Shown: piece after piece, positions 7,678 to 63,710 of the stretch | Layout: each line of letters opens with the position of its first letter | Numbering within the stretch: position 1 is the first letter of the stretch | Assembly (NCBI GenBank): GCA_028282805.1 | Contig: JANQHD010000047.1 | Coordinates: 1-64,000, forward strand | Direction: 5' to 3' | DNA length: 64,000 bases | Origin: Phycisphaeraceae bacterium | GTDB taxonomy: Bacteria > Planctomycetota > Phycisphaerae > Phycisphaerales > Zrk34 | The notes under the pieces: model-generated | Database searches by the model: none | What the model saw: the letters and a program-made list of their open reading frames with translations, nothing else | What the model was told of the DNA's origin: nothing | Position numbers and translations under genes: made by a program

Positions 7678-9074
<1,397 letters not shown>

Positions 9075-9083
9075 CAACCCGGC

Positions 9084-9100
9084 TTGGCGCAAGAGTTGCG
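9084..9100 (+). promoter_or_regulatory. Sigma-54 like promoter before flgB
   Basis: TTGGCGC, five bases, TTGCG: the invariant GG (9,086-9,087) and GC (9,098-9,099) are 10 bp apart as in -24/-12 promoters. It lies 9 bp after the sigma-54 activator gene and about 165 bp before flgB. The same bases form a palindrome (GCGCAA-GAG-TTGCGC) whose near copy occurs inside flhB, so it could instead be a repeat. Confidence 0.45.
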
Positions 9101-9266
9101 CCCCGGCGGCGCAAGACGTGCGTGCGGCCCGGCCGTGCGGCTGGGGCGTGAACGCGCCCAAGGCCCGCGGCGGCCGCGGTTTGGCGATGAAACGGGGCCG
9201 CGCGGCGGCGCGGCACGGCCGTTGCGGCTCAACCGCCGGTGAACTGCGCGATTGGAAGGTTTGACC

Positions 9267-9701
9267 GTGATCGAAGGGCTGTTCAACTCAGGTTCGATGC
9301 CCGTGCTGGAGCGCATGGCTCAGTTCACCGAGCAGCGCCACCGGCACATCGTCGACGCGATCGCGAACCTGTCGACGCCGAACTACAAGCCGACCGACCT
9401 GGACGTCGGCTCGTTCCAGGCGGCGCTGGCCAAGGCGGTCGACGAGCGGCGCAACGAGACGGGCGGGCCCAACGGCGACCTTCGGGTGCGCCACACCGAC
9501 CAGCTGCGTTTCGAGCCCGACGGCATCGAAACGCAGCCGGGCTTCCGCAACCAGAACCTGTTGTTTCACGACCGCAACAACCGCAGCGTCGAGCACGTGA
9601 TGAAGGACCTGGCCGAGAACGCGATGATGCACAACGCGGCGATCGAGATGCTGCGAAACCAGTTCCACATGCTCGAGACGGCGATCTCGCTACGCGTCTG
9701 A
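9267..9701 (+). CDS. flgB: Flagellar basal-body rod protein FlgB
   Basis: 144 aa from GTG 9267 (GGAAGG at 9,255-9,260). The N-terminal rod signature is ANLSTPNYKPTDLDVGSF and the C-terminus is a helical region with AIEMLRNQFHMLETAISLRV. FlgB is the proximal rod subunit exported through the type III gate. It heads a run of structural genes, followed 21 bp later by flgC. The 190 bp upstream hold the sigma-54 like site. Confidence 0.95.
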   Translation: MIEGLFNSGSMPVLERMAQFTEQRHRHIVDAIANLSTPNYKPTDLDVGSFQAALAKAVDERRNETGGPNGDLRVRHTDQLRFEPDGIETQPGFRNQNLLFHDRNNRSVEHVMKDLAENAMMHNAAIEMLRNQFHMLETAISLRV

Positions 9702-9722
9702 CCGGCGCACGGAGATGATTGA

Positions 9723-10130
9723 ATGTTTGGCGCGTTAGACATTTCGACCTCGGCCCTGGTGGCGCAGCGGACGCGGATCAACACGATCAGCGCGAACATG
9801 GCCAACCAGTTCTCCGTGTACGACGAGCAGGGCAACTACAGCCCGTACCGCCGGCGGGACGTGATCTTCGCGCCCGGCGACCCGGCGACGGGCAACCCCC
9901 ACGGCGTGCACGTGCGCGAGATCAAGCTCGACGACGCGCCGTTCAAGCAGGTGTTCGTCGGCGAGAACCACCCGCTGGCCGACGAGAAGGGCATGATGAA
10001 GATGCCGAACATCGAGCCCATGATGGAGATGATCAACGCCTTGGAGGCCAGCCGGGCCTACGAGGCGAACGTGACGGCCGCCGAGGCGACCAAGAGCATG
10101 CTCAACACCGCGATCCGCCTGATCGCGTAA
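9723..10130 (+). CDS. flgC: Flagellar basal-body rod protein FlgC
   Basis: 135 aa, the usual length. The N-terminal rod helix (ALDISTSALVAQRTRINTISANMAN) is followed by a short central part and a C-terminal EMINALEASRAYEANVTAAEATKSM coil typical of rod proteins. It builds the proximal rod with FlgB and lies between flgB and fliE. Confidence 0.95.
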   Translation: MFGALDISTSALVAQRTRINTISANMANQFSVYDEQGNYSPYRRRDVIFAPGDPATGNPHGVHVREIKLDDAPFKQVFVGENHPLADEKGMMKMPNIEPMMEMINALEASRAYEANVTAAEATKSMLNTAIRLIA

Positions 10131-10148
10131 GGATAAGCGAGGACCACG

Positions 10149-10454
10149 ATGCCCGACCCATTGGGACTCATCGGATCAGCCGGCGGCGCGGGGCCGCCGA
10201 TCAAGCCGCCGGCGCCGGGGCCGGGCGGCGACGGCGCGTCGTTCAAGGACGTGCTGCTGGACAACATCAAGCAGGTCAACGACCTGCAACAGGACGCGCA
10301 CAAGGCGATCGAGGACCTCAACGCCGGCCGGCGCGACGACGTGGCGAACGTGATGATCGCCAAGCAGAAGGCGGACATCGCGTTCAAGGCGTTGCTGGCG
10401 GTGCGGAACAAGATGATGGATGCGTACCAGGAGATCAAGGACGTGCGGGTGTAA
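10149..10454 (+). CDS. fliE: Flagellar hook-basal body protein FliE
   Basis: 101 aa. A Gly/Pro-rich N-terminus leads into the conserved FliE helices (SFKDVLLDNIKQVNDLQ, then VMIAKQKADIAFKALLAVRNKMMDAYQEI). FliE joins the MS ring to the rod. It follows flgC by 18 bp; the gap to fliF carries an inverted pair of heptamer arrays. Confidence 0.95.
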   Translation: MPDPLGLIGSAGGAGPPIKPPAPGPGGDGASFKDVLLDNIKQVNDLQQDAHKAIEDLNAGRRDDVANVMIAKQKADIAFKALLAVRNKMMDAYQEIKDVRV

Positions 10455-10458
10455 AGGA

Positions 10459-10549
10459 GGGTCTTGAGTCTTGAGGTTTGAGTCTTGAGTGGCTTCTCAA
10501 GGCTTGTACCCCAGGGCTCAAGACTCATCGCTCGAGACTCAAGACTCAT
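10459..10549. repeat. Inverted pair of degenerate heptamer arrays
   Basis: Left arm 10,459-10,491 reads in units of GAGTCTT; right arm 10,515-10,549 has GGCTCAA, GACTCAT, CGCTCGA, GACTCAA, GACTCAT. Read on one strand both arms fit the RACYCRR consensus of the other arrays in this window. The arms are complementary and could form a long stem in the fliE-fliF mRNA gap. Confidence 0.7.
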
Positions 10550-10569
10550 TCGGCATGGAGGCCGACGAC

Positions 10570-12228
10570 ATGGACTTTATTCGCAAGTGGATCACGCAAG
10601 CCCAGGCGCACCTGTCGGGGCTGTCGCTCAGCACGAAGATGCTGATGGGGATGTGCGTGGTCTTCCTCATCGCGACGCTCGGCGTGGTGGCGCTGTACGC
10701 CGGCCGGGCGGAGCTGGCGCCGCTGATCGATCAGCCGATCGCGGCGACCGAGCGGGCGACGATCACCTCGTACCTGGACATGCGCGACATCAAGTACGAG
10801 CTGCGCGGCGACCGGGTCTGGGTGCCGGTCGAGCGGCGCATCGACGTGCTCGCCGCGTTGCAGACCAACCAGATGCTGCCGGAAGACACCAGCCACGGCT
10901 TCGCGAAGCTGCTGGAGGGCCAGTCGATCTGGCAGTCGACCGAGCAGGGCCGGATGAACTTCGACATCGCGCTGCAGAACGAGCTGAGCCGGATCGTCAG
11001 CCGGATGCGCGGCGTGGACTCGGCGAGCGTGATCATCTCGCGGCCGCAGAAGACGGGCTTCGGCGCCTCGAACAAGCACCCCAGCGCCTCGGTGAACGTC
11101 GAGCCCACGGGGGGGAGCTTGAACCGCAAGACCGCCGAGGCGATCGCGGGGCTGGTGGCCGGCGCCGTGGCGGAGATGCAGCCGCCGGACGTGACCGTCA
11201 TCGACTCGCACGCCGGCCGGCAGTTCCGCACGCAGGACGACAGCGCCTACGGCGGCACCGAGCTGATCGAGATGGTGCAGGGCCAGGAGCGTTTGTACCG
11301 CGAGAAGATCGCCGACGTGCTCGGTTACATCCCCAAGGTCATCGTCGCGGTCAGCGTCGAGGTCGAGCCCACCCGCAAGCACACCGACTCGGTCGCCTAC
11401 GACCGGGCCAAGTCGGTCGAGCCGATGATCAGCTCCGAGGATAGCGAGACCAGCAGCTCGTCACCGATCGCCGGCGGCGAACCCGGCGCACGGTCGAACA
11501 CGGGCGCCGACATCGAGGGCGGCGGCGCGGTCACGCAGACGTCGAACACCACCACCGCCAAGAAAGAGTTCGCCCCGAAGACCGGCTACGAACACACCAC
11601 CGCCTACAACCCCGCGGGTGTGCCGACGCGCATCAGCGCCACGGTCAACGTGCCGCGCAGTTACTTCGTGGCTTTGTACAACCAGGCCAACCCGCCCGCC
11701 GAAGGCGAAGAGGCCAAGGAACCGACCGACACCGAGCTCCAACCGCTGGTCGACGACCACCTGAAGCGCATCAAGGACCAGGTGATGAACCTGGTGAGTT
11801 GGCAGAACGACGGGCGGGTCGTGGTCGACGTGTACCCCGACCAGTCGCTGGCGGTTGCGCTGGCGGGCATGGGTGTGCGCGGCGGCGGGGGCGTGGGCGG
11901 CCTGCTCGGCAACGGCATGATCAAGACCGGCGGCCTCGGCGCGCTGGCGCTGGTGGCGGTGTTCGTGGTGTTCATGATGGCGCGCAAGCCCATGAAGGAG
12001 CAAGAGGTGCCCAGCGCCGTGGAGCTCGCGGGGCTGCCGCCGGACCTGACCGCCGAGGACGACGTGGCGGGCGAGGCCGGAGAGGTCGAGACCGCGCTGA
12101 CCGGCATCGAGCTCGACGACGACCAGCTCGCCTCGCGCAAGGTCTCCGAGCAGGTGACCGCCATGATCAAGAACGACCCCATCGAAGCGGCGCAGCTGCT
12201 GAAACGCTGGGTGCGGCAGGAAGACTAA
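10570..12228 (+). CDS. fliF: Flagellar MS-ring protein FliF
   Basis: 552 aa from ATG 10570, which has GGAGG at 10,557-10,561; ATG 10555 would add 5 residues and earlier starts lie in the repeat. TM1 is MCVVFLIATLGVVALYAG, the YscJ/FliF ring-building domains follow (TSYLDMRDIKYELRG... VDSASVIISRP), then a Ser/Gly-rich loop, TM2 (LGALALVAVFVVFMMA) and a C-terminal FliG-binding tail ending AAQLLKRWVRQED. It forms the ring that houses the export gate. It is followed by fliG 12 bp later, as in most flagellar operons. Confidence 0.95.
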   Translation: MDFIRKWITQAQAHLSGLSLSTKMLMGMCVVFLIATLGVVALYAGRAELAPLIDQPIAATERATITSYLDMRDIKYELRGDRVWVPVERRIDVLAALQTNQMLPEDTSHGFAKLLEGQSIWQSTEQGRMNFDIALQNELSRIVSRMRGVDSASVIISRPQKTGFGASNKHPSASVNVEPTGGSLNRKTAEAIAGLVAGAVAEMQPPDVTVIDSHAGRQFRTQDDSAYGGTELIEMVQGQERLYREKIADVLGYIPKVIVAVSVEVEPTRKHTDSVAYDRAKSVEPMISSEDSETSSSSPIAGGEPGARSNTGADIEGGGAVTQTSNTTTAKKEFAPKTGYEHTTAYNPAGVPTRISATVNVPRSYFVALYNQANPPAEGEEAKEPTDTELQPLVDDHLKRIKDQVMNLVSWQNDGRVVVDVYPDQSLAVALAGMGVRGGGGVGGLLGNGMIKTGGLGALALVAVFVVFMMARKPMKEQEVPSAVELAGLPPDLTAEDDVAGEAGEVETALTGIELDDDQLASRKVSEQVTAMIKNDPIEAAQLLKRWVRQED

Positions 12229-12240
12229 ACGGACGACGAC

Positions 12241-13269
12241 ATGCCCGACACCGCGGAAAAAGTCGAAGACCTCAACGGGCTGCAGAAGGCGGCGATCCTC
12301 ATCCTCGCGCTCGACGAGGAGACCGCGTCGCTCATCCTCAAGGAGATGGACCCGCTCAGCGTCGAAGAGGTCACCCGCCAGGTCGCGTCGATCACCAACA
12401 TCGACCCCGACACGCGCACCACCGTCGTCAAGGAGTTCTACGACTTGGCGATGGCCAAGAGCTGGGCCGCGGAGGGCGGGCTCGAGTACGCCAAGAACCT
12501 GCTGAAAAAGAGCTGCGACCCGAAGGTGGCCGACCAGATCATCCAGCAGGTCGCCCAGTCGGTGCACCAGACGCCGTTCGCGTTTTTGCAGAAGGCCGAG
12601 TCCGAGCACCTGCTGACTTTTATTCAGGACGAGCACCCGCAGACGATCGCGTTGATCGTCAGCCACCTGCCGTACCACAAGGCGTCGGAGATACTCGGCG
12701 GGCTGCCGGCGCAGAAGCAGATCGAGGTCGTCAAGCGCATCGCCAACATGGAACAGACCAACCCCGAGGTGATCCGCGAGGTCGAGGCGGGGCTGGAGAC
12801 GCGCCTGTCGACCATGCTCTCGCAGCGCATGGAGAAGGCGGGCGGCGTCGACACCGTGGCCGAGGTGCTCAACCTCGTGGACCGCGCGACCGAGAAGGGC
12901 ATCCTTGAAGGTTTGGAGACCGACGACCCGGACCTCGCCGAGTCGATCCGCCGGCTGATGTTCGTGTTCGACGACATCATGCTCGTCAACGACAAGGGCA
13001 TCCAGTCCGTGCTCAAGGAGGTCGACAACGACGAGCTGTCGCTGGCGCTGAAGACGGCGAGCGACGAGATGAAGGACAAGATATTCAACAACATGTCGGA
13101 GCGCGCCGCGGAGCTGATCAAGGAGGACATGGAGTTCATGGGCCCCGTGCGCGTCAGCGACGTGGAACAGGCGCAGCAGCGCATCGTGGACATCGTCCGT
13201 CGCCTCGAGGAGGCCGGCGAGATCATCATCGCCGGCCGCGGCGGCGGCGAGGGCGACGTGATTGTTTAG
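12241..13269 (+). CDS. fliG: Flagellar motor switch protein FliG
   Basis: 342 aa, usual length. The N-terminal FliF-binding domain starts GLQKAAILILALDEETA; the middle domain contains EHPQTIALIVSHLPYHKAS (the EHPQR-like motif); the C-terminal torque domain has charged residues in MFVFDDIMLVNDKGIQSVLKEVD. FliG transmits rotor-stator force and switches direction. It lies between fliF and fliH. Confidence 0.95.
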   Translation: MPDTAEKVEDLNGLQKAAILILALDEETASLILKEMDPLSVEEVTRQVASITNIDPDTRTTVVKEFYDLAMAKSWAAEGGLEYAKNLLKKSCDPKVADQIIQQVAQSVHQTPFAFLQKAESEHLLTFIQDEHPQTIALIVSHLPYHKASEILGGLPAQKQIEVVKRIANMEQTNPEVIREVEAGLETRLSTMLSQRMEKAGGVDTVAEVLNLVDRATEKGILEGLETDDPDLAESIRRLMFVFDDIMLVNDKGIQSVLKEVDNDELSLALKTASDEMKDKIFNNMSERAAELIKEDMEFMGPVRVSDVEQAQQRIVDIVRRLEEAGEIIIAGRGGGEGDVIV

Positions 13270-13282
13270 TGATGAGTGATTC

Positions 13283-14053
13283 ATGCCGTTAATCAAAGAC
13301 AACAACGCGCAGCGCATGCAACACGAAGCGGTCGTGCTCGACCTCGGCGACCTTCAGGCCGTCGGCGAGCGCATGAAGGCCGAGGCGAAGGCCGAGGCCG
13401 CGCGCATCATCGCCGAAGCGCAAGCCGAAGCGCAGCGCCTTTCCGACGGCGCCGCCGAGCGCGGCCACGCCGAGGGCTTCGAGCAGGGCAAGGCCGCGGG
13501 CTTCACACAGGGCCGCGCCGAGGGCCACGCCCAGGCGTTGGCCGAGGCGCAGGAGCAGCTGGCGACGTTGCAACAGGCGTGGGTCAACGCCGCGCAGCAG
13601 TGGGACGCCGACCGCCGACAGATGCTGCTCGATGCGCGGCAGTCGCTGCTCGCGTTGGCGTTGGACGTCGCCGGCAAGGTCGTGCACCGCGTGCCGCGCG
13701 TGGACCCGAGCGTCGTCGTCGACCAGGTCGCCGCGGCCGTTGAACACATGGCCCGGCCCGCCGACGCGACGATCCGCGTTCACCCCGACGACCGCGCGCT
13801 CGTCGCCGAGGCGCTGCCGCAATTGGTCGAGCAGTGCAACAAACTCGAACACGCCCACCTCGCCGACGACGAAACCCTCACGCCCGGCGGGTGTGTTGTG
13901 ACCTACGGCAACGGCGCCATCGACGCCACGCTCGAAACCCAACTCAAGCGCATCGTCGAAACCCTGCTACCGGTCGACGCAACCCCGAGCCCCGAACCCC
14001 GAGACCCGGAACCCGACAACCCGAAACCTGACAACCCGGAACCCGGAGCCTGA
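13283..14053 (+). CDS. fliH: Flagellar assembly protein FliH
   Basis: 256 aa. A long Ala/Glu-rich coiled coil (about residues 25-105, with GHAEGFEQGKAAGFTQGRAEGHAQ, the GxxxG-like FliH repeat) precedes the V-ATPase subunit-E-like C-domain (VVHRVPRVDPSVVVDQVAAAVEHM, IRVHPDDRALV). FliH restrains the FliI ATPase. Oddly, the last ~24 residues are a Pro/Asp/Asn/Glu tail encoded by a degenerate heptamer array (13,982-14,060) that also contains the stop codon. Confidence 0.9.
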   Translation: MPLIKDNNAQRMQHEAVVLDLGDLQAVGERMKAEAKAEAARIIAEAQAEAQRLSDGAAERGHAEGFEQGKAAGFTQGRAEGHAQALAEAQEQLATLQQAWVNAAQQWDADRRQMLLDARQSLLALALDVAGKVVHRVPRVDPSVVVDQVAAAVEHMARPADATIRVHPDDRALVAEALPQLVEQCNKLEHAHLADDETLTPGGCVVTYGNGAIDATLETQLKRIVETLLPVDATPSPEPRDPEPDNPKPDNPEPGA

Positions 14054-14060
14054 ACCTTGG
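13982..14060 (+). repeat. Heptamer array over the fliH end and fliI start
   Basis: Eleven units fit AACYYGR-like heptamers (for example ACCCCGA, GACCCGG, AACCCGA, AACCTGA, AACCCGG), with single C insertions at 14,017 and 14,032. Unit AGCCTGA contains the fliH stop; the last unit, ACCTTGG, contains the TTG start of fliI; GGAG at 14,045-14,048 is the likely SD. Because 7 is not a multiple of 3, coding units cycle through all frames and give the repeated PEP/NPKPDN tail of FliH. Confidence 0.8.
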
Positions 14061-15421
14061 CCCTGTTCGCCCCCGCCATGTCGACCATCGAACGCATCAC
14101 GCCCGTCGAGCAGACCGGTTGCGTGAGCGAGGTGCGCGGCTTGACGCTGCTGGTGTCGGACCTGTCGATGCCGATCGGCGCGACGGTCGAGGTGTTGACC
14201 GCCGACGGGCCGCGCATGGGCGAGGTGGTGGGCTTCGACCACGAACAGACGATCGTGATGCTGATGGCGTTCACCAGCGGCGTGCGGCGCGGCGACCGGG
14301 TGGTCGGCCTGCACGCGGCGGGCGTGGCGCCGGTCGGCCACGAGTACCTCGGCCGGGTCGTCGACGCGATGGGCCGGGCGATCGACGGCGGCGCGCCCGT
14401 GCGCGACACCATGGCGCGGCCGATCCAACCGGACCCGATCGACCCGCTACGCCGCGTGCCCATCGACACGCCGCTCGGCACCGGCGTGCGCGCGATGGAC
14501 ACCATGCTCACCGTGGGGCGCGGCCAACGACTCGGCATCTTCGCGGGGCCCGGCGTCGGCAAGAGCACCTTGCTCGGGCAGATCGCCAAGCACACCGACG
14601 CCGACGTGTCGATCGTGGCGCTGGTCGGCGAGCGCGGCCGCGAGGTCAACGACTTCTTGCACCATGCGCTGGGCGACGAGGGCCTGCGGCGCAGCGTGGT
14701 CGTGGTGGCCACGGGCGACGAGCCGGCCCCGCTGCGCGTGCGCGCGGCGCAGTATGCGCTGACCCTCGCCGAGTTCTTCCGCGACGAGGGGCTCGACGTG
14801 GTGCTGTTCATGGATTCGGTCACACGCTTCTGTCAGGCCCAGCGGCAGATCGGCCTGGCGGTCGGCGAACCCCCGGCGACCAAGGGGTACACGCCCAGCG
14901 TGTTCGCGATGCTGCCGACGCTGATGGAACGCTGCGGGCGCACCGGCGTCGGCTCGATCACCGGGTTCTTCACGATCCTTGTGGAGGGCGACGACATGAC
15001 CGAGCCGGTGTCCGACGCGGTGCGCGGCATACTCGACGGGCACGTCGTGCTCGCGCGCGAGCTGGCCAACCGCGCCCACTGGCCGGCGATCGACGTGCTG
15101 CACTCGGTCAGCCGGTTGTCGCGGGCGATATCGGAAAAGGCGCACGTCGCGGCGCGGGACCAGCTGATGCAACTGCTGGCGGCGTACGACGAGATCGAAG
15201 ACCTGGTGAACATCGGCGCCTACGCGGCGGGCGCGAACCCGACGCAGGACCTGGCGATCGCGCTCAAGCCGATGATCGACGACCTGCTCAAGCAGGACGC
15301 CGACGAGCACGTGACGTTCGAGCGGTCGCGTTCGCAGTTGATGGAGCTGGCGCTGAGCGTCGGCACGAAGGCCGAGGAGCTGGCCCGCGCCGCGAAGAAC
15401 GGCGCGCCGGCTGTGCGGTAG
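14057..15421 (+). CDS. fliI: Flagellum-specific ATPase FliI
   Basis: 454 aa from TTG 14057, 3 bp after the fliH stop; ATG 14078 is an alternative that drops 7 residues but has no SD. F1-beta-like fold with Walker A GPGVGKST (about residues 164-171), LVGERGREVNDF, Walker B LDVVLFMDSVTR and the export-ATPase segment VGEPPATKGYTPSVFAMLPTLMER. It energises delivery of export substrates with FliH and FliJ, whose genes flank it. Confidence 0.95.
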   Translation: MALFAPAMSTIERITPVEQTGCVSEVRGLTLLVSDLSMPIGATVEVLTADGPRMGEVVGFDHEQTIVMLMAFTSGVRRGDRVVGLHAAGVAPVGHEYLGRVVDAMGRAIDGGAPVRDTMARPIQPDPIDPLRRVPIDTPLGTGVRAMDTMLTVGRGQRLGIFAGPGVGKSTLLGQIAKHTDADVSIVALVGERGREVNDFLHHALGDEGLRRSVVVVATGDEPAPLRVRAAQYALTLAEFFRDEGLDVVLFMDSVTRFCQAQRQIGLAVGEPPATKGYTPSVFAMLPTLMERCGRTGVGSITGFFTILVEGDDMTEPVSDAVRGILDGHVVLARELANRAHWPAIDVLHSVSRLSRAISEKAHVAARDQLMQLLAAYDEIEDLVNIGAYAAGANPTQDLAIALKPMIDDLLKQDADEHVTFERSRSQLMELALSVGTKAEELARAAKNGAPAVR

Positions 15422-15441
15422 GGATTTAAACGGAGCCACGG

Positions 15442-15900
15442 ATGGCACGGTTCGAGTTCAAGATGGAGCCTTTGCTGACGCACCGGCGTCGGCTCGAAGA
15501 CGAGCGGCAGCGCGCGTTGGCGGTGTTGCTGCGCGAGAAGCTGATACTCGAAACCCAGCTCCGCAACCAGCAGCAATCGATCAGCGAGGACAAGCAACGG
15601 CTGTCGGGCGCGTTGGCCGGGCGGGTGGACGTCGACTCGATCCGCCGGCACGCGGCGCACAACCACCGGCTGGCGGTGCGGGCGCAGCAGATCGCCATCC
15701 GTTTGTTTGAATTGACGCGGCAGATCGAAGCCGCGCGCGTGGCGCTGGTCGAGGCGACCAAACAGCGCAAGGCGATCGAGCTGTTGCGCGACAAGCGGTT
15801 CGACCGCTGGCGCAAGCGACAGCAGCGCAAGGCGACCGCGGAGCTGGACGAGCTGGCGACGCAGAAGTACGGGCGTAAACGCCGGGAGGTCGCGGCATGA
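15442..15900 (+). CDS. fliJ: Flagellar export protein FliJ
   Basis: 152 aa, entirely alpha-helical and charged, with the FliJ start FKMEPLLTHRRRLEDERQRAL and a long antiparallel coiled coil. FliJ is the stalk of the FliH-FliI ATPase complex and couples it to FlhA. The stop overlaps the start of motE by 4 bp (ATGA). Confidence 0.85.
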   Translation: MARFEFKMEPLLTHRRRLEDERQRALAVLLREKLILETQLRNQQQSISEDKQRLSGALAGRVDVDSIRRHAAHNHRLAVRAQQIAIRLFELTRQIEAARVALVEATKQRKAIELLRDKRFDRWRKRQQRKATAELDELATQKYGRKRREVAA

Positions 15901-16586
15901 AGGCGTTGAGCACGGCGATCATCATCGTGCTGGTGGTGCACGGCCTGGCGCTGATCGGGCTGGCCAGCTACCTGCTGGGCACGGGCCGGTTGAGCAAGGA
16001 CCGGTTGGAACAAGCGCGGGAGATGTTCGCGCTATCGGTCGAGGCTGAGCGCGAGCAGAAGGAGAAGGAAGAGGCCGAGGCGGCGGAGCAAGCTGCGGAG
16101 CAGGCGGCGAATCAGCCGGGTGTGTTCGCGTCGACGGCCGACCGGCTGGCCGAGTCGGAAGAGCGTAACGAGATCTTGCTGCGTCAGCTCGAGCGCACGC
16201 GGCGTGACATCGAATCGCTGACGCAGAACCTGAACCTGACGCGCAAGCGGATGAGGGAAGAGCGCGAACAGACCAAGCTCGCGCGCGAGGCGTTCGACCA
16301 GAAACTCAAGGGCGTGACCGAACGGCTGGACGACGAGGGTTTTCAGAAGACCGTCGCGCTGTTCGAGCAGCTGCCGGCCAAGCAGGTCAAGGGCATGTTC
16401 GTGGAGCTGATGGCCCAGGGCCAGACCGAGCAGGTGGTGACGTACCTGGAGGCGATGCAGCCGCGCGTCGCGGCGGCGGTGCTCAAGGAGTTCAAGGCGG
16501 GCAGCGAGTTACAGGCGGCGGTGGAACTGACCGAACGCCTGCGCTCGCGCGGCAGCGACCTGGCAAAGCAAGTGGAAGGCGTGTGA
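15897..16586 (+). CDS. motE: MotE-like protein (MgtE N-terminal domain)
   Basis: 229 aa. One N-terminal transmembrane helix (STAIIIVLVVHGLALIGLASYLL), a long periplasmic coiled coil (about residues 40-145) and a C-terminal MgtE-N-like helical domain (ALFEQLPAKQVKGMFVELM...VVTYLEAMQPRVAAAVLKEF). This is the layout of MotE/FlaA-22.9 proteins, which act as chaperones or structural parts of the stator MotC/MotB in other bacteria. Between fliJ and fliK, where this family is usually found; both junctions overlap. Confidence 0.75.
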   Translation: MKALSTAIIIVLVVHGLALIGLASYLLGTGRLSKDRLEQAREMFALSVEAEREQKEKEEAEAAEQAAEQAANQPGVFASTADRLAESEERNEILLRQLERTRRDIESLTQNLNLTRKRMREEREQTKLAREAFDQKLKGVTERLDDEGFQKTVALFEQLPAKQVKGMFVELMAQGQTEQVVTYLEAMQPRVAAAVLKEFKAGSELQAAVELTERLRSRGSDLAKQVEGV

Positions 16587-18121
16587 TGAAGCTCGAAGGA
16601 TTCGGCACACCGACCGACCTGCCCGAACTGCCGATCAAGGCGTCGGGCAAGACCGACGGCCAGACGGACGAGTTCGGTTCGCTGTTGAGTGGGTTGCGCG
16701 AGCCGGTCGAGGTAGACGAACAGGTCGCTAAGCCGCAAGCGGCTCGGGCACGCGACGACGGCGATGAGGTCGATAAGGTCAACGCCGACGAGGCGCAACC
16801 GGTGGGTGATGAGGAAGTGGTTGCTGATACACCGGTTGATGACGACGAGCAGGCGGCGGACGTCGGCCCGACAAACGTAGAAGGCCAGCGCGAGCCGTCG
16901 ACAAAGCCGCAAACCGACGACGGCGACGACGCGGACCCGCCGGCGCAACCGAAGCCCGCGACGCCGGTGGTGGTTGACGAAGTCAAGCCGAGCGAAGAAC
17001 CGGACGCCGACGATACGCCTAAGCCGCCCGCGGCGGACCCGCTGCAACACCTCGACGCCGAGCGGCCGGAGTTGCAAACGCCCGAGCCGACGCAGGCCGA
17101 GCAGGTGGTTGCCGAGCTGAAAGCGGTTGCGCCGGTGGCGGCCGTGCCAGCGCCGGTCGAAGCGCCTGCGCCTGTGCCGGTGACACCCGCACCCTCGGCG
17201 AGCGCGACCGACAAGCCGCAGCCTGCGCCGACGAACCAGCCGACGGTTGACGCCGACGCGGTGGTGGTCAAGCCGGACGCGAAGGGCGGCGAGCCTTCGT
17301 CGAACCAGTCGGGTCAATCGGACCGGCGTTCGGAACAGCAGGGCCAGCAGCGCGGCGCGGCAGCGGAGCAAGCGCCGAAGCAAGCTGCGCCGGAGGTGGA
17401 GGTGGTGCGGGACGCTAAGCCGCAAGCGGCGACGCCGAGCCCGTCGGTGGCCGAGCAGCAGGCACAGCAAACGCCGGTGGCACGGGCCGATGCGTCGACC
17501 CACGTCAGCGCGCCGGCCACCCCTGCGCCGACGCCGGGTGTGGCGGTGGAACTCGCTGCGCCGGCCACGGCGATCGACGCGACGCCGTCGAAACCGGCAC
17601 CCGCGCCGAGCGCGAGCGCCACGCAGGGCGGCGCCCAAGCCGCGCCGCAGGCGGAGCTGCCTGAGGCTGACGCCCAGCGCATCACCGACCGCGTGGTCAA
17701 GGGCTTGCGCAGCGTGATCAACCAGCGTGGCGGCACGCTGACGCTGCGGTTGAACCCCGCGGAGCTCGGCGCGATGCGCATCAGCGTGAAGATGGACGGC
17801 ACGGCGGTGGCGGCGCAGTTTCAGGCGAGCACCGCCGCGGCCAGCCAGGCGCTGAACCAGAACTTAGCGGCGCTGCGGCACGCGCTGGAGGCGCAGGGCC
17901 TGACGGTGGAGAACCTGAACGTGCAGGTGACGTCTTCGTCGTCGTCATCGGGCTCGTCGCAATCGCAGACCGAACAGCACACCGACGGTTCGCCGACGGA
18001 CGGGCAGAGCAAGGGCCTGATGCGCGACGGCGACCAGGCGCACGGCGGTCGTGGAGACGGCCGCGAAGATCAACCGGAGCACCACGACTTCAAGCAGGAG
18101 CTGCTGGACCTCGTGGTCTAA
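16586..18121 (+). CDS. fliK: Flagellar hook-length control protein FliK
   Basis: 511 aa from ATG 16586 (GGAAGG at 16,573-16,578); GTG 16583 is possible. About 350 residues of Pro/Ala/Glu-rich low-complexity ruler sequence lead into the conserved FliK C-domain (TLTLRLNPAELGAMRISVKMDG, then NQNLAALRHALEAQGLTVENLNV). FliK measures the hook and switches export specificity through FlhB, encoded 10 kb downstream. Two copies of an 18-bp palindromic repeat lie in the ruler part in the same frame, each encoding AKPQA. Confidence 0.9.
   Translation: MKLEGFGTPTDLPELPIKASGKTDGQTDEFGSLLSGLREPVEVDEQVAKPQAARARDDGDEVDKVNADEAQPVGDEEVVADTPVDDDEQAADVGPTNVEGQREPSTKPQTDDGDDADPPAQPKPATPVVVDEVKPSEEPDADDTPKPPAADPLQHLDAERPELQTPEPTQAEQVVAELKAVAPVAAVPAPVEAPAPVPVTPAPSASATDKPQPAPTNQPTVDADAVVVKPDAKGGEPSSNQSGQSDRRSEQQGQQRGAAAEQAPKQAAPEVEVVRDAKPQAATPSPSVAEQQAQQTPVARADASTHVSAPATPAPTPGVAVELAAPATAIDATPSKPAPAPSASATQGGAQAAPQAELPEADAQRITDRVVKGLRSVINQRGGTLTLRLNPAELGAMRISVKMDGTAVAAQFQASTAAASQALNQNLAALRHALEAQGLTVENLNVQVTSSSSSSGSSQSQTEQHTDGSPTDGQSKGLMRDGDQAHGGRGDGREDQPEHHDFKQELLDLVV
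16726..16743 (+). repeat. Palindromic repeat CGCTAAGCCGCAAGCGGC, copy 1 (in fliK)
   Basis: An 18-bp element with a GCCGC-AA-GCGGC hairpin, identical to copies at 17,413-17,430 (fliK) and 30,632-30,649 (flhF). In frame it encodes AKPQA. Confidence 0.75.
17413..17430 (+). repeat. Palindromic repeat CGCTAAGCCGCAAGCGGC, copy 2 (in fliK)
   Basis: Second identical 18-bp copy inside fliK, same strand and same reading frame (AKPQA) as the first. Confidence 0.75.
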
Positions 18122-18139
18122 CGCAGGGAGGTACGACTT

Positions 18140-18565
18140 ATGCAGGTCACATCCGCCACATCGTCGACGTCGGCGGGCACGAACAAGTTCGCCGAGCTCG
18201 AGTCGACGGAGTTTGTACGCATCTTGGTCGAGGAGTTGCAGAACCAGGACCCGTTCTCGCCGAACGACTCGGCGGCGATCCTCGAGCAGCTCAGTTCGCT
18301 GCGCAACATCGAGAGCCAGACGTTGCTCGGCGACCAGATCGGCGAGCTGGTCAAACAGAACCAGGTCGCCGCGGCGGGCAACCTGATCGGCAAGCTCGTG
18401 GAGGGCATCGACTCGAGCAACAACAACACGTCGGGCGTGGTCACTTCGGTGCGCGTGACCGACGAGGGCGTGTTCCTCGAGCTCGACACGGGGCGCACGA
18501 TGGACGTCACGCAGGTGTCGCAGATCTCCGAGCTGAGCGGCGGGGCCGAAGGCGACGCGGCTTGA
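18140..18565 (+). CDS. flgD: Flagellar hook assembly/capping protein FlgD
   Basis: 141 aa, a short FlgD. It has the conserved N-terminal segment FVRILVEELQNQDPFSPNDSAAILEQLSSLRNIES and a following SNNNTSGVVTSVRVTDEGVFLELDTG domain part. It lacks the larger tudor/Fn3 domain of enteric FlgD, as is common outside proteobacteria. It caps the growing hook. SD GGGAGG lies at 18,126-18,131; the next gene starts 9 bp on. Confidence 0.9.
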   Translation: MQVTSATSSTSAGTNKFAELESTEFVRILVEELQNQDPFSPNDSAAILEQLSSLRNIESQTLLGDQIGELVKQNQVAAAGNLIGKLVEGIDSSNNNTSGVVTSVRVTDEGVFLELDTGRTMDVTQVSQISELSGGAEGDAA

Positions 18566-18574
18566 GGTAAACCG

Positions 18575-19030
18575 ATGAGTCAGGGCGCAGAACTGTTGCG
18601 GGCGTTGGAGCCACCGGTCAGGCCGGCCGGGAGCCCTGCGCCGAGCGTGAAGCCGGCGTCGCCGATCGAGCGGCGCAGCTTCGACGAGCTGCTGCGCGAC
18701 GCGGCCGCGGCCGCGGAGTCGACGCGGGCCGAGCCGATCCGCATCTCGGCCCACGCGCTCAAGCGGTTGGAGCAGATGGGCATCGAGCTGAACGACGGCG
18801 AGCTGCAGGCGATCGGCGAGGCGACGGACCTCGCCGCGGCGAAGGGCGCGCGGGAGTCGCTGATGCTCATGGAGCGGTTGGGGCTGATCGTCAACATCCC
18901 CAACCGGACCGTGATCACCGCGCTCAACGAGCAGCGCATGAACGAAGGCATCATCACGCAGATCGATTCGACCGTGTGGGTCAAGCCGTCGGCCGAAGAT
19001 TCGGCGGCCGGGCCCTTGGAACCAACATGA
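18575..19030 (+). CDS. Flagellar operon protein, TIGR02530/DUF3766 family
   Basis: 151 aa. After a Pro-rich N-terminus the conserved domain begins at about residue 65: ISAHALKRLEQMGIELNDGEL, then LMLMERLGLIVNIPNRTVITALNEQR and ITQIDSTVWV. This matches the small flagellar operon protein usually found between flgD and flgE in Firmicutes, spirochaetes and planctomycetes. Its function is not established. Position between flgD and flgE supports the call. The stop TGA lies in a heptamer unit. Confidence 0.8.
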   Translation: MSQGAELLRALEPPVRPAGSPAPSVKPASPIERRSFDELLRDAAAAAESTRAEPIRISAHALKRLEQMGIELNDGELQAIGEATDLAAAKGARESLMLMERLGLIVNIPNRTVITALNEQRMNEGIITQIDSTVWVKPSAEDSAAGPLEPT

Positions 19031-19058
19031 AACTCGGAACCTGAAACTTGGAACGGAT
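19024..19058 (+). repeat. Heptamer array before flgE
   Basis: Units AACATGA, AACTCGG, AACCTGA, AACTTGG, AACGGAT follow without gaps, in the same register and consensus as the fliH/fliI array. The first unit contains the stop codon of the preceding gene. Confidence 0.7.
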
Positions 19059-19133
19059 AACGACGGGCTGGACCCGCGAGGGAAGCCCGGGGCGGTCGAA
19101 CGACGGAGACCGCCTTGACCCAGGAGACAACCC

Positions 19134-20912
19134 ATGTCCTTGACCGGCGCTTTCGCTACCGGGCTGAGTGGCCTCGACGCCAACTCGCAGAACATCGACA
19201 TCATCGGTAACAACATCGCCAACGTGAATACGCCTTCGTACAAGGCGAAGCGCGCGCTGTTCACGACGCAGTTCATGCGCAACCTGTCGCTCGGCTCGCC
19301 GCCCAGCGGCGCTTCGGGTGGCACGAACCCGATGCAGGTCGGCCTCGGCACGCGCATCGGCGGCATCCAGACCGACTTCACCAACGGCGGCATCTCCGGC
19401 ACCGGCATCGCCACCAACATGGCCATCGAGGGCAACGGCTTCTTCATCGTCGAGCAGGCCAACGAGCAGTTCTACACCCGAGACGGGCAGTTCGCGCTCA
19501 ACAGCGAGAACAAGCTCACCACCGCCACCGGCGCGCTGGTGCAGGGCTACGCCGTCGACCAGAACTTCAACATCGTGCCCGGCGTGCTCAACGACCTGGA
19601 CATCCAGATCGGCTCGCTCACCATCGCCGAGGCGACGGGGAACGTGAACTTCGAGGGCAACCTCAACGCCGCGGGCGAGGTCTCGTCGGGCGGCTCGCTG
19701 CACGACTCCCGCACGTTCTTCACCGACGCGGCGCTGACGCCCGGCAACGAAGAGGCGGGCGCCACGGACCTGACCGTCGGCGGCAACAACCTGTACATCG
19801 ACGACGGCGCCGGCGGCTCGTTCCTCGCCTTCGAGGGCGGCACCGACACGATCATCACCATCTCCGGCGTGGAGAAGGCCGGCCAGGCGCTGGCGAGCAA
19901 GACGTTCGCTTTCTCCACCGACCCCACGGTCATCGCCACCGTCGACGACGCGGGCACGAACATCAACGACTTCATCGCCTTCATCAACGATGCGCTGGGC
20001 CTGTCGAGCGTGAGCATCAACGGCGAAACGCTCGGCGGCGGCGCGTCGCTGGTGGCCGGCGAGATCGTCATCGCCGGCAACGAAGGCGCGGTGCAGGACC
20101 TGCTGCTCGAGACCGGCCACATCACCGCCTCGTCCAGCGCGCCGGGCTTCAGCGGCATCGCCAACCCGATGGTCATGCAGAAGACGCAGGCCGCCGACGG
20201 CGAGGCGGGGCGGACCTCGTTCGTGGTGTTCGACTCGCTGGGCACCGAGATCCAGGTGGACCTGACGTTCATCAAGCAGTCGGTCGTGCCCGACGGCGGC
20301 ACGGTCTGGCAGTGGGTCGCTGAGTCGAACGACAACGACGCCCTGCCGCGCATCGTGGGCCTGGGCAACGTCGAGTTCGACCAGAACGGCGTGTTCGTCA
20401 GCGCGAGCAACTCGGCGTTCTCCCTCACCCGCCTCAACGGCGCCGACGACCCGTTGACGGTCAACATGGTGTTCGACAACGGCATCGATTCGATCACCGC
20501 GCTGGCGTCGACCAGCAGCGTCGTGTCGCCCGTGCGTCAGGACGGCTCGCCGCTCGGCACGCTCGACGAGTTCAGCGTCGGCGAAGACGGCACCATCACC
20601 GGGTCGTTCACCAACGGCCTGACCCGCACCATCGGCCAGGTCGCGATCGCCACGTTCATCAACAACGACGGCCTGATCGAGGCCGGCAACAACATGTACA
20701 CGTCGGGCGCCAACAGCGGCAACGCCGTGATCGGCACGCCGCTGACCCTGGGCGCCGGGCGGGTCGTTGCCGGCGCGATCGAGCAGTCGAACGTGGACCT
20801 CGCCGAGGAGTTCGTGAACCTGATCACCTCGTCGACCGGCTTCTCCGCCGCGTCGCGCGTGATCACCACCACCGACCAGATGCTCCAGCAGCTGCTGCTG
20901 ATCGGGCGGTAA
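19134..20912 (+). CDS. flgE: Flagellar hook protein FlgE
   Basis: 592 aa, longer than the ~400 aa of enteric FlgE, as in many non-proteobacterial hooks. N-terminal D0 signature SGLDANSQNIDIIGNNIANVNTPSYK, FlgE D2/D1 domains between, and C-terminal SNVDLAEEFVNLITSSTGFSAASRVITTTDQMLQQLL. The central ~300 residues are Gly/Asp/Thr-rich. SD AGGAG lies at 19,121-19,125. It polymerises into the hook universal joint. Confidence 0.95.
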   Translation: MSLTGAFATGLSGLDANSQNIDIIGNNIANVNTPSYKAKRALFTTQFMRNLSLGSPPSGASGGTNPMQVGLGTRIGGIQTDFTNGGISGTGIATNMAIEGNGFFIVEQANEQFYTRDGQFALNSENKLTTATGALVQGYAVDQNFNIVPGVLNDLDIQIGSLTIAEATGNVNFEGNLNAAGEVSSGGSLHDSRTFFTDAALTPGNEEAGATDLTVGGNNLYIDDGAGGSFLAFEGGTDTIITISGVEKAGQALASKTFAFSTDPTVIATVDDAGTNINDFIAFINDALGLSSVSINGETLGGGASLVAGEIVIAGNEGAVQDLLLETGHITASSSAPGFSGIANPMVMQKTQAADGEAGRTSFVVFDSLGTEIQVDLTFIKQSVVPDGGTVWQWVAESNDNDALPRIVGLGNVEFDQNGVFVSASNSAFSLTRLNGADDPLTVNMVFDNGIDSITALASTSSVVSPVRQDGSPLGTLDEFSVGEDGTITGSFTNGLTRTIGQVAIATFINNDGLIEAGNNMYTSGANSGNAVIGTPLTLGAGRVVAGAIEQSNVDLAEEFVNLITSSTGFSAASRVITTTDQMLQQLLLIGR

Positions 20913-20927
20913 GCGTTAACCCCATTA

Positions 20928-20947
20928 GCCCCCGGTTTGACCGGGGG
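20928..20947. repeat. Stem-loop after flgE
   Basis: TAGCCCCCGG, TTTGA, CCGGGGG: a perfect 7-bp GC stem 15 bp after the flgE stop, without a T-run. It may be a palindromic repeat or a processing/stabiliser hairpin rather than a terminator. Confidence 0.45.
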
Positions 20948-20973
20948 TGAGCGAAGCGATGAGAAACAACGAT

Positions 20974-21044
20974 AGCCATCGAGCCAACCAGCCACCGAGC
21001 CAACCAGATCGATCGAAGGTCTGTTGGCTCTTGGCTGATGGCTT
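20974..21044. repeat. Octamer array and its inverted heptamer counterpart
   Basis: 20,974-21,005 holds four AGCCNNCN octamers (AGCCATCG, AGCCAACC, AGCCACCG, AGCCAACC). 21,024-21,044 holds TTGGCTC, TTGGCTG, ATGGCTT, complementary in core but with period 7. Together with flanking GCGATGAG/CATCGCTGA they can fold into one long imperfect stem between flgE and flbD. Confidence 0.6.
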
Positions 21045-21072
21045 GTTCGCCCATCGCTGAGGTAAAAGAACC

Positions 21073-21270
21073 ATGATCAAGCTGACCCGCCTCAACGGCC
21101 AATCCTTCGTCGTGAACGCCGAGCTGATCAAGACGGTCGAGTCGCGGCCGGACACGACGATCAAGCTGATCAACGGGGACACGTTGATCGTGTTGGAAAC
21201 GATGGACGACGTGGTGGACCGGTCGGTGGAATACGGCCGATCCCTGCGGAAGCTGCTGCCGCCGAGTTGA
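21073..21270 (+). CDS. flbD: Flagellar protein FlbD
   Basis: 65 aa, the typical small FlbD/YlzI: IKLTRLNGQSFVVNAELIKTVE, then PDTTIKLINGDTLIVLETMDDVVDR. It lies between flgE and motA as in Firmicutes and spirochaetes; its molecular role is poorly defined. The gap before it carries a long imperfect inverted repeat, and a T-run terminator follows, so it ends the first half of the cluster. Confidence 0.9.
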   Translation: MIKLTRLNGQSFVVNAELIKTVESRPDTTIKLINGDTLIVLETMDDVVDRSVEYGRSLRKLLPPS

Positions 21271-21301
21271 GCGGCGAGCCGCGTTATTGCTTTGTTCCCG
21301 C

Positions 21302-21327
21302 ACCGCCGGGTTGCTCGGCGGTTTTTA
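21302..21327 (+). terminator. Rho-independent terminator after flbD
   Basis: Stem ACCGCCG/CGGCGGT with loop GGTTGCT, followed by TTTTATT, 31 bp after the flbD stop. It separates flbD from the motA transcription unit, which has its own promoter. Confidence 0.8.
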
Positions 21328-21443
21328 TTGCGCGCTGCGTGCGGGTCGCGGCTAAACGTTTGGTTGATCCGCTGCGTGGGGGAGGCGGTGTAACCGGTGT
21401 GGACGTGGTGTTATCGGGGCTCAATTCACACTTGTCCGCGGCT

Positions 21444-21470
21444 TAAGTGGCCGCCTGGGCGGGTCGATAA
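21444..21470 (+). promoter_or_regulatory. Sigma-28 (FliA) type promoter of motAB
   Basis: TAAG at 21,444-21,447, 15 bp, GTCGATAA at 21,463-21,470. This is 10 of 12 bases of the TAAA-N15-GCCGATAA consensus with exact spacing. It is 55 bp before the motA ATG and after a terminator, and the cluster encodes a FliA-type sigma factor. Confidence 0.75.
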
Positions 21471-21525
21471 ATCCACAGGACACAGTGCGCTAACGGACCG
21501 GTTCGGGACCGGGTGGGAGTGTTTG

Positions 21526-22302
21526 ATGGACCTGGTAACCATTGTCGGCGTGATCATGGCATTCGCGCTGATCGCTTGGGCGATCGTTTCGGGCGGCAGC
21601 CCGCAGGCGTTCGTCGACGTGCCCTCTATGGCGATCGTCATCGGCGGCGCGATCGCGGCGTCCATGGCGGCCGTGCCCTCGTCGACGCTCAAGTCGATCG
21701 CCAAGATCTTCAGCAAGACGATCAAGCACAAAGCCCAGTCGCCGGCCAAGCTGATCGAGGACCTCGTGTCCTACGCCGAGGTCGCGCGGCGCGACGGCAT
21801 CCTCTCGCTCGAGTCGATGTGCAAGGACATCGAAGACCCGTTCATCGTGCGCGGCATCCAGATGGCCGTCGACGGCACCGACCCGGAGTTGATCGAGCAG
21901 ATCATGATCACCGAACTGGAGAACCTGGTCGAGCGTCACGAGTCCGGCCGGAACCTGTTCTCGACGATCGGCAAGTACGCGCCGGCGTTCGGCATGATCG
22001 GGACGCTGGTCGGCCTGGTGGCGATGCTGGCGAACATGGACGACCCGTCGAGCATCGGCAGCGGCATGGCGGTGGCGTTGCTGACCACCATGTACGGCGC
22101 GATCTTGGCGAACGTGGTGTTCCTGCCGCTGGCCGACAAGCTTCAGTCGCGCAGCGCCGAAGAGGTGCTGCTGAAGACGATCATCATCAAGGGCGTGATG
22201 TCGATCCAGTCCGGCGACAACCCGCGCATCGTGGAACAGAAGCTCAAGACCTTCTTGCCGCCTTCGGCGCGCGGCGCGGAGGAAGAGGCCGAGGCCGCCT
22301 GA
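21526..22302 (+). CDS. motA: Flagellar motor stator protein MotA
   Basis: 258 aa from ATG 21526 (GGGAG at 21,515-21,519). Four transmembrane helices: two at the N-terminus (VGVIMAFALIAWAIVSGG, VIGGAIAASMAAVP) and two after the cytoplasmic loop (YAPAFGMIGTLVGLVAML, GMAVALLTTMYGAILANVVFLPLADKL). With MotB it forms the ion channel driving rotation. It sits behind a sigma-28 type promoter. Confidence 0.95.
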   Translation: MDLVTIVGVIMAFALIAWAIVSGGSPQAFVDVPSMAIVIGGAIAASMAAVPSSTLKSIAKIFSKTIKHKAQSPAKLIEDLVSYAEVARRDGILSLESMCKDIEDPFIVRGIQMAVDGTDPELIEQIMITELENLVERHESGRNLFSTIGKYAPAFGMIGTLVGLVAMLANMDDPSSIGSGMAVALLTTMYGAILANVVFLPLADKLQSRSAEEVLLKTIIIKGVMSIQSGDNPRIVEQKLKTFLPPSARGAEEEAEAA

Positions 22303-22327
22303 TCGGCCCGAACAGGAAACCGACCGC

Positions 22328-23080: not shown

Positions 23081-23095
23081 GAAAGGGATCAGGCC

Positions 23096-23632
23096 ATGGC
23101 CGACGAAACACCACAGGAACAGACCTCGACCGAAGAGCAGCAGCCGAAGAAGGGCGGCGCGATGAAGGCGATCATCATCGTCGTCGTCGTGATGGTGATT
23201 GAAGCGGCCGCCTTTCTCGGTATGATGATGATGTCGGGCGGGCCCGACCCGGCCGCGGCGGCCGACGTGGTGCCCGACGACCAGGCCGAGCTGGACAAGC
23301 TGGTCGAAGTGACGATCGTCGAAGGCAAGTTCGACAACCGGCGGACGGGCCGGACGTACCTGTACGACACCGAGATCGTCGTGCTGGTCCGCCAGCGCCA
23401 CGCCGAGCAGCTGGCGCTCGACATCGAGGCGAGCCAGACGCAGGTCTCGGTCGACGTGCAGACGATCTTCCGGCGGGCCGAGCCGGCCCACTTCCAGGAG
23501 CCGACCATGGCCACGCTGACCCGGCAGGTCAAGGCCAAGCTCGACGAGCGCTTCGGCACGGACGCCGAGGACAAGCCCTTGATCGACAAGGTCTTGATCG
23601 CCAAATGTTTAGCGATCCGCATGGATTATTGA
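23096..23632 (+). CDS. fliL: Flagellar basal-body-associated protein FliL
   Basis: 178 aa. A charged N-terminus, one transmembrane helix (MKAIIIVVVVMVIEAAAFLGMMMM, about residues 22-45) and a periplasmic FliL domain (LVEVTIVEGKFDNRR...EIVVLVRQRH, LTRQVKAKLDERFG). FliL surrounds and supports the stator. It is 15 bp after motB, before fliN. Confidence 0.85.
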   Translation: MADETPQEQTSTEEQQPKKGGAMKAIIIVVVVMVIEAAAFLGMMMMSGGPDPAAAADVVPDDQAELDKLVEVTIVEGKFDNRRTGRTYLYDTEIVVLVRQRHAEQLALDIEASQTQVSVDVQTIFRRAEPAHFQEPTMATLTRQVKAKLDERFGTDAEDKPLIDKVLIAKCLAIRMDY

Positions 23633-25988: not shown

Positions 25989-25998
25989 CGGGCAAAGA

Positions 25999-26039
25999 AC
26001 TCGAAATCGGAAATCGGAAATCGGCAATCGGAGACCCAA
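25999..26039 (+). repeat. Heptamer array between fliP and fliQ
   Basis: AACTCG, then AAATCGG three times, CAATCGG and AGACCCA, leading straight into the fliQ ATG at 26,041. GGAG at 26,031-26,034, in the array, is the probable fliQ SD. Same register as the AACYYGR family. Confidence 0.75.
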
Positions 26040-26040
26040 C

Positions 26041-26292
26041 ATGACATCCGCTGAAGCGATCGACGTGGTGCGGGAGGCGCTGTTTATCGCGTTGCTCATC
26101 AGCGCGCCCATCCTCGCGGTGGGGCTGGTCGTCGGCCTGATCATCAGCATCTTCCAGGCCGTCACCCAGATCCAGGAACAGACCCTCAGCTTCGTGCCCA
26201 AGATCTTCGCCATGGGCGCGCTGACCATCGCCATCGTGCCCTGGATCTACAACAAGATGTTCGAGTACGCCACGATCATGTTCGGCTCGTAG
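26041..26292 (+). CDS. fliQ: Flagellar export gate protein FliQ
   Basis: 83 aa, two transmembrane helices (ALFIALLISAPILAVGLVVGLIISIFQAVTQIQEQTL in segments and IFAMGALTIAIVPWI), the exact family size and signature QEQTLSFVPK. Part of the FliPQR gate. Its SD lies in the heptamer array before it; fliR follows 13 bp later. Confidence 0.95.
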   Translation: MTSAEAIDVVREALFIALLISAPILAVGLVVGLIISIFQAVTQIQEQTLSFVPKIFAMGALTIAIVPWIYNKMFEYATIMFGS

Positions 26293-40322: not shown

Positions 40323-40466
40323 GTTCATATCTCCGTTGGTCGTTGATTACGTCTCATCCACCCGGGCAGACCGATCACACCCGGCCTTGCCTGGTACGCA
40401 CCTTTTGGCAAGCCCGATGCCATCGGTGGGGGCTGGCGGGTGTGGTGTAATTGGCTGTAAGTGCTT

Positions 40467-40502
40467 GTGAATCCGTGAATTGGTGAATAAGTGAATCGGT
40501 GG
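40467..40502 (+). repeat. Octamer array GTGAATNN
   Basis: GTGAATCC, GTGAATTG, GTGAATAA, GTGAATCG follow without gaps, then GTGG. It lies in the 262-bp divergent gap between groEL2 and the C39-like gene; apart from this array and promoters I see nothing in the gap. Confidence 0.7.
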
Positions 40503-40584
40503 CGCCGCCGCGGTCGATTCAGCTTGTCTGCCACTGTGGCAGCAGCCGTTTTCGGGGCTGCCATGCGGGCCTGTAGCGTTTACG

Positions 40585-63591: not shown

Positions 63592-63628
63592 CGGCCGCGG
63601 CCTTAAAAACCGCGGCCGATTTTTTTTT
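63592..63628 (+). terminator. Terminator after the DUF2203 gene
   Basis: Stem CGGCCGCGG/CCGCGGCCG (9 perfect pairs), loop CCTTAAAAA, then A and eight T residues (63,621-63,628). Confidence 0.9.
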
Positions 63629-63666
63629 CGGGTCTCGGGTCTCGGGTTCCGGGTTTCGGGTTCCGG
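63628..63666 (-). repeat. Heptamer array between the DUF2203 gene and rph
   Basis: On the minus strand AACCCGA, AACCCGG, AACCCGA, GACCCGA, GACCCGA: five units, same consensus as the fliH/fliI array. It begins right at the T-run of the terminator. Confidence 0.75.
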
Positions 63667-63710
63667 AACAAGCCGGACTGAAGCGCAGCGCAAGTCCGGA
63701 TCACAGGGCA

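Follow-up and report, generated by a model that had tools for sequence, protein, structure and literature searches.

A heptamer array across the fliH-fliI junction

In a draft genome of a Phycisphaeraceae bacterium, the junction between the flagellar genes fliH and fliI is built of seven-base units, which raises the question of how DNA with a non-triplet period came to provide protein sequence and translation signals. We analyzed a window of 64,000 nucleotides, part of contig 41 of this genome (G000; 3.9 Mb), which is represented by one single draft assembly. Read directly, the array parses into eleven units, nine 7-mers and two 8-mers with one extra base each: AACCCCG, AGCCCCG, AACCCCG, AGACCCG, GAACCCG, ACAACCCG, AAACCTG, ACAACCCG, GAACCCG, GAGCCTG, and AACCTTG, followed by G. 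It begins at about codon 233 of fliH and carries the final ca. 24 codons of that gene, its stop, a GGAG motif, and the TTG start of fliI (Table 1), as the original prediction had described; the location also held, although the first base is 13981 and not 13982. TRF reported period 7 (9.1 copies) and period 14 (4.6 copies) at 13981-14048.

Both genes are in the same frame, the fliH stop lies three bases before the TTG with both inside repeat units, and the GGAG, at a spacing of 8 nt from the TTG (14057-14059), would be the Shine-Dalgarno core. FliH matches Pfam PF02108 at residues 103-224, upstream of the array-coded tail, and FliI matches ATP-synt_ab and T3SS_ATPase_C; the neighbors fliE, fliF, fliG, fliP, and fliQ have Pfam matches too. 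The TTG was aligned opposite the ATG of fliI in G001, the nearest comparison genome, assigned to the same genus as G000.

TABLE 1 Features of the fliH-fliI junction and related arrays (positions in the window unless a locus is named)
Feature	Position	Strand	Remarks
fliE-fliF junction, two inverted GAGTCTT arrays	10456..10548	+	Arms 10461-10545, 25/29 paired in register
fliH	13283..14053	+	Conserved body ends at about residue 230 (near 13972); tail ATPSPEPRDPEPDNPKPDNPEPGA is array coded
Junction heptamer array, nine 7-nt and two 8-nt units	13981..14059	+	Consensus near AACCCCG / AACCCGG
GGAG, Shine-Dalgarno-like core within repeat unit	14045..14048	+	Putative role
fliH stop TGA, units 10-11 (GAGCCTG A)	14051..14053	+	Sequence, ORF
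fliI, TTG start in last unit AACCTTG(G)	14057..15421	+	ORF, Pfam, G001 alignment
8-bp array AGCCAACC	20972..21009	+	Between FlgE-like gene and flbD
GAAATCG array, fliP-fliQ junction	25993..26042	+	Spans 4 nt past fliP stop to fliQ start
8-bp array GTGAATCG	40465..40503	+	Between two genes
CGGGTTT array	63619..63670	+	Unit family of fliH array, on other strand
912-residue glycosyltransferase ORF	L131 16979-19720 (G000 contig 3, 36979-39720)

A dispersed class of 7-bp and 8-bp arrays

Degenerate arrays with a unit of 7 bp, or less commonly 8 bp, are dispersed across the whole genome, and the junction array belongs to this class. In a sample of 803,050 bases of G000 (21% of the genome: the window, 20 contig starts, and 20 further stretches), we found 48 lag-7 and 17 lag-8 arrays at ≥20/28. 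Each of the control lags (4, 5, 10, 11, 13, 17, 19, and 20; lags 14 and 16 are harmonics, not controls) gave 0 to 2 arrays in the same sample, and its Markov-3 surrogates 0 to 3. At ≥22/28, 28 lag-7 arrays were observed versus 0 to 1 per surrogate (five Markov-3 surrogates). The units form families (the AACCCCG type, AAGACTC/AAGCCTC, AATGACC, and AGATCGC), with 88 unit pairs within one substitution compared to 26 for shuffled units (maximum of 37 in 200), and the fliH unit falls into a cluster together with 11 further arrays.

After merging and removal of contig ends, 58 arrays were left, 48 of them at least 10% intergenic. A stop codon fell inside 16 of these 48 partly intergenic arrays (null 6.8; count reached in 0/500), a bias that depends on a purpose-written codon-usage caller for the genes and on a simple null for array placement. 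There was no such bias for start codons, which the caller places less certainly than stops (7 of 48, null 7.7).

Inverted pairs and hairpins

Many arrays have an inverted neighbor. Counting both members of a pair separately, 21/48 arrays had, no farther than 150 bp away, a partner in inverted orientation (p ≤ 0.042), and 3/48 had a direct one. A period-blind scan for long inverted repeats returned 14 in the G000 sample, all mostly intergenic, whose best period was 7 in nine and 8 in three; at a lower threshold there were 24 (period 7 in 14 and period 8 in 3). As RNA, the fliE-fliF hairpin folded with a minimum free energy of -53.5 kcal/mol (z -5.85) and L181 15294-15397 with a z of -10.0, while the fold of L037 3923-4035 was unexceptional (z -1.05). 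Arms of 22 hairpins were 91% paired in register versus 78% when shifted, which favors specific partner arms, although this test deserves little weight because the hairpin finder picks the best register and is biased. In small samples of relatives, period-7 hairpins made up 2/2 in G003, 1/1 in G008, and 1/2 in G005, and G057 had five hairpins, three of period 7 and one of period 8. None had period 7 in the samples of G007 (0/6), G009 (0/1), and G048 (0/1), and the samples of G001, G004, and G006 held no long inverted-repeat hairpins at all.

REP and BIME palindromes are intergenic, often within operons, hairpin forming, and present in high copy number. The G000 arrays share all four traits, but their hairpin arms are themselves 7-bp periodic and the units differ among copies. 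The class could be a functional element, REP-like, acting in mRNA or DNA as hairpins, G4/i-motif tracts, or 3'-end stabilizers, with the fliH copy as a degenerate or single-arm version. The dominance of heptad periods among long intergenic inverted repeats and the stable fliE-fliF fold would fit, as would the heptamer arrays that G005 also carries at fliE-fliF and fliP-fliQ and, on the fliH template strand, nine runs of at least three G within 90 nt (runs counted only). Yet the fliH array folded as RNA no better than shuffles (z -0.41) and gave no REP-like hairpin. Regulatory RNA, promoter, and terminator were sought there and not found, an Rfam search of 9000-27000 returned nothing, and no common function was seen among the array-carrying genes. 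We consider this explanation unlikely.

Slippage and proposed phase variation

The original prediction had also suggested a phase-variable site, in which slippage by one heptamer would shift the FliH frame and could change fliI translation. Such a switch would alter fliH-fliI coupling, and with it flagellar export or motility. The array does cover stop, Shine-Dalgarno core, and start. In silico, loss of one unit gives a FliH of 278 aa with its stop 70 nt within fliI, gain of one unit gives 251 aa with the stop 25 nt upstream of fliI, and a change of three units restores the register. Long perfect arrays elsewhere in G000 (e.g., L050 5104-5273) suggest that expansions occur. However, phase-variable repeats have near-perfect tandem units, and those at fliH are degenerate, the longest exact lag-7 run being 8 nt, i.e., two perfect units. 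Slippage would not knock out FliH, because its domain ends before the array; a one-unit change affects only the disordered tail, the stop position, and perhaps fliI coupling. In addition, the genes that adjoin or contain arrays of this class are functionally unrelated. A switch at this site was not supported and seems very improbable.

The draft state of the assembly needs a comment. Perfect 7- or 8-bp arrays open 5 of the 20 sampled contig starts (L037, L039, L040, L044, and L050), so a handful of long, identical satellites seem to be where the assembly breaks, and the 8-bp unit AGTTGACC recurs among these array-bearing starts. That the junction array or its indels arose from collapsed or misjoined repeats is nevertheless hardly credible for an array of only 79 bp that is degenerate and lies within an 87-kb contig, flanked by syntenic genes and with both reading frames intact.

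The seven-base period belongs to the DNA

Over the 80 bases of the array, identity was 48/73 at lag 7 and 40/66 at lag 14, with only 7/76 at lag 4 and 7/69 at lag 11. For comparison, the 25 residues were re-coded synonymously: the peptide was kept and codons were drawn from the codon use of G000. The lag-7 total was matched by 3 of 20,000 re-codings, the best 28-base lag-7 stretch by 43 of 20,000, and the lag-14 total by none of 20,000, while lag 15, the one expected from the peptide repeat, was unexceptional (2,217 of 20,000 reached the observed value). The repeat is hence a property of the DNA and the peptide its shadow. GC3 was 0.68 in the array-coded tail versus 0.89 in the rest of fliH.

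An ordinary PEP/DN low-complexity tail with codons that are heptameric by coincidence could point to the five-residue repeat DNPKP-DNPEP (38/65 at lag 15) and to tails of relatives likewise rich in P, D, and E, but it is refuted at the DNA level by the re-codings, unless that null is wrong, and the period also extends beyond the stop codon and the unit family occurs in noncoding DNA (e.g., 63619-63670), leaving such a coincidence scarcely plausible.

The junction in related genomes

In G001, fliH ends in an ordinary acidic tail, GATDTTVSQETTTETDTTEDETNDEPQADTDQPTDTEA, there is no lag-7 array, and stop and start overlap as ATGA. This agrees with the earlier proposal that the array arose across an existing junction with both genes left intact. 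Among relatives, 55 junctions have a FliI alignment that begins at residue 1, and 42 of them show the same 4-nt overlap type. In the 98 distinct junctions compared, conservation of FliH stops near residue 230, and the tails that follow are variable. In the 95 of 98 whose tails were counted, namely, those without N and with an alignment to residue 228 or beyond, A, D, E, P, G, and S are abundant and the length ranged from 4 to 105 aa (median, 21); a FliH match was missing at four loci in the junction comparison. A tail conserved in distant relatives, which would have spoken for ordinary coding sequence, was not found in this set.

By these comparisons, the fliH-fliI array is lineage specific. 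Row L130 was left out, since its N run matches at every lag. Excess heptamer periodicity (p ≤ 0.01) occurred in 2 of the 68 relative tails of at least 16 aa that could be re-coded and likewise in 2 at control lag 5, so heptameric coding is no general property of FliH tails. G007, of another genus, has a C-rich FliH tail ending AAGCCTGA, which is equally periodic at lag 9 and reached only p = 0.012 on re-coding, and G057 has a noncoding GGTTTGT array between fliH and fliI, with a unit different from that of G000. An ancestral array shared with these two was considered and rejected on these grounds and because G001 has none.

The samples of other genomes, which by choice are partly the flagellar region, yielded 12 lag-7 arrays in 60 kb of G057, 6 in 40 kb of G003, 6 in 120 kb of G005, and one each in G006 (60 kb), G007 (120 kb), and G008 (19 kb). 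There were none in G004 (14 kb), G009 (40 kb), or G048 (40 kb). G001 had none in 110 kb, or in 129 kb including later loci, and none at seven loci corresponding to array-bearing genes and the flagellar cluster. In G005, of another genus, the arrays at fliE-fliF and fliP-fliQ stand as in G000 with different units, and in G008 a hairpin separates fliG from fliH. Matches to an AAGACTC-family pattern, 64 in G000 versus 6 for the reversed control, occurred in only 10 of 120 genomes of the class, so unit families are patchy and not universal.

Arrays within other coding sequences

Among the called genes of G000 there were 19 array-gene overlaps of at least 9 nt, of which six were followed further: fliH and the five cases below. 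The C-terminal tail of an AlaDH-family protein, ETPEPETRDPAPDDP, is coded by the fliH unit family and is variable in 13 orthologues. A linker of RarA/MgsA, GGKEIRNPESGVRNPGSK, is variable in 11 orthologues within a well conserved protein. The G000 rarA gene with this array is L037 15344-16738, and rarA of G005 has its own heptamer array with a different unit (L217 2184-2221), by arithmetic at about the same linker. The N terminus of a FabF-like protein, MTQASSLKPQASPR, is replaced by other N termini in nine relatives, and an array in an oxidoreductase loop lies where three relatives differ in length. Judged from these comparisons, the array-coded segments fall in length-tolerant places: tails, a linker, an N terminus, and a loop. 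The FabF-like gene of G003 has heptamer arrays shortly upstream of its start region and at its end (L248 1430-1464 and 2782-2820).

The 912-residue ORF unites GT87-like and GT2-DUF2064 parts, which are separate neighboring frames in G005, G003, and G008, and a heptad hairpin lies exactly at the joint. From residue 446 to the point where conserved GT2 sequence begins, no ATG, GTG, or TTG codon was seen. The ORF is thus either a fusion or a case of GT2 starting within the upstream gene, although a sequencing frameshift could also be responsible. Further arrays lie wholly inside ORFs (L045 16368, L046 98376 and L034 58648, both in stitched numbering, L040 12872, and L049 11717), and some of these may be chance.

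Comparison with described repeats

Heptamers GGGAATC and GGGGA(C/T)T near stop codons were described in Xanthomonas and Nostoc (PMC4692102). The G000 arrays resemble them in being dispersed 7-nt arrays, many per genome, at variable positions and mostly intergenic, close to or overlapping stops, with unrelated gene functions and with lengths varying between relatives, and the CGGGGTT-type units have a similar G-run layout (PMC4692102). Many-locus 7-nt periodicity, a shared unit family, and stop-codon proximity were all found in G000, the fliH copy being part of a coding sequence for which it also provides the stop. Unlike the one unit type per genome of that study, G000 has several families and an 8-bp class, often as inverted pairs and with copies entering coding tails and linkers (PMC4692102). 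Its Discussion mentions a hypothesis that a 7-nt slippage step matches the polymerase contact length (PMC4692102).

The TAACTGA direct repeats of Beggiatoaceae are also 7-nt and placed at gene junctions, overlap the upstream stop codon in 13 of 25 repeat-bearing ORFs, and sometimes seem to replace Shine-Dalgarno sequences (PMC4679880). They have one fixed unit, mainly just upstream of starts, whereas in G000 stops are favored and units vary (PMC4679880). Heptamer-derived satellites are generally known in prokaryotes (PMC6749651). As with the heptanucleotide repeats of Calothrix, there are several heptamer families per genome, and as with GATAGRA of Chloroflexus, satellites are scattered through the chromosome; coding use and hairpin pairing, seen in G000, are not among the features that these sources describe in the parts dealing with those two genera (PMC4692102, PMC6749651). 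Tandem repeats in ORFs of Borgs (aaTRs) similarly make new disordered protein segments (PMC9879509). Their units are near perfect and all divisible by three, unlike those of fliH, which have 7 or 8 nt and keep frame via indels (PMC9879509).

In a literature search by titles and the opening of abstracts, with subscription papers mostly outside its scope, we found no description of heptamer, heptanucleotide, or 7-bp repeats in planctomycetes, of tandem repeats in Phycisphaerae, or of FliH/FliI with repeats or phase variation.

A possible origin

In the class as a whole, unit families recur, stop codons are favored, inverted pairs form hairpins, and some copies are coding. The likeliest account, to which we give a probability of about 0.7, is that these are slippage-born heptamer satellites tolerated at gene ends, fliH-fliI being one of them. 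Replication slippage that prefers a step of 7 nt would create and lengthen short repeats, which purifying selection would spare wherever length and sequence matter least: at the 3' ends of genes, at short junctions within operons, and in disordered tails or variable linkers. At the junction, the array may have grown in or into the tolerated FliH tail and over the gene boundary. The C-rich unit has no stop, so FliH would now read through the array; one unit mutated to GAGCCTG plus A would provide a new stop, and GGAG and TTG within units would act as the ribosome-binding site and start of fliI, with the ancestral ATGA overlap lost. The product would be an ordinary FliH with a putatively neutral, or nearly neutral, disordered tail.

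Simple slippage leaves the inverted partners of about half of the arrays unexplained, which suggests another process (template switching) or selection for hairpins; inverted pairs need something more, perhaps snap-back synthesis or hairpin selection. More tentatively than tolerated slippage, one could imagine an active class that shapes Phycisphaerae genomes through a 7- or 8-nt step, inverted copying by snap-back or template switching, settling on stops, and rewriting of gene ends. If so, it would yield new C-terminal tails, stops, starts, N termini, linkers, and even gene fusions, and fliH-fliI would be one snapshot of ongoing gene-end rewriting. These are concrete cases of non-triplet DNA repeats becoming protein and translation signals, several of them with the array-free state kept in a genome of the same genus. 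They also suggest that, within a lineage, long intergenic hairpins and gene ends may be shaped by a single repeat process of small step.

Arrays with 8-bp units of the types CACAGAGA and CGCCAAGA are found again in other genera, some of them as inverted pairs (L148 3133-3180 in G000, L182 15064-15100, L183 6956-6992, and L188 13578-13762).
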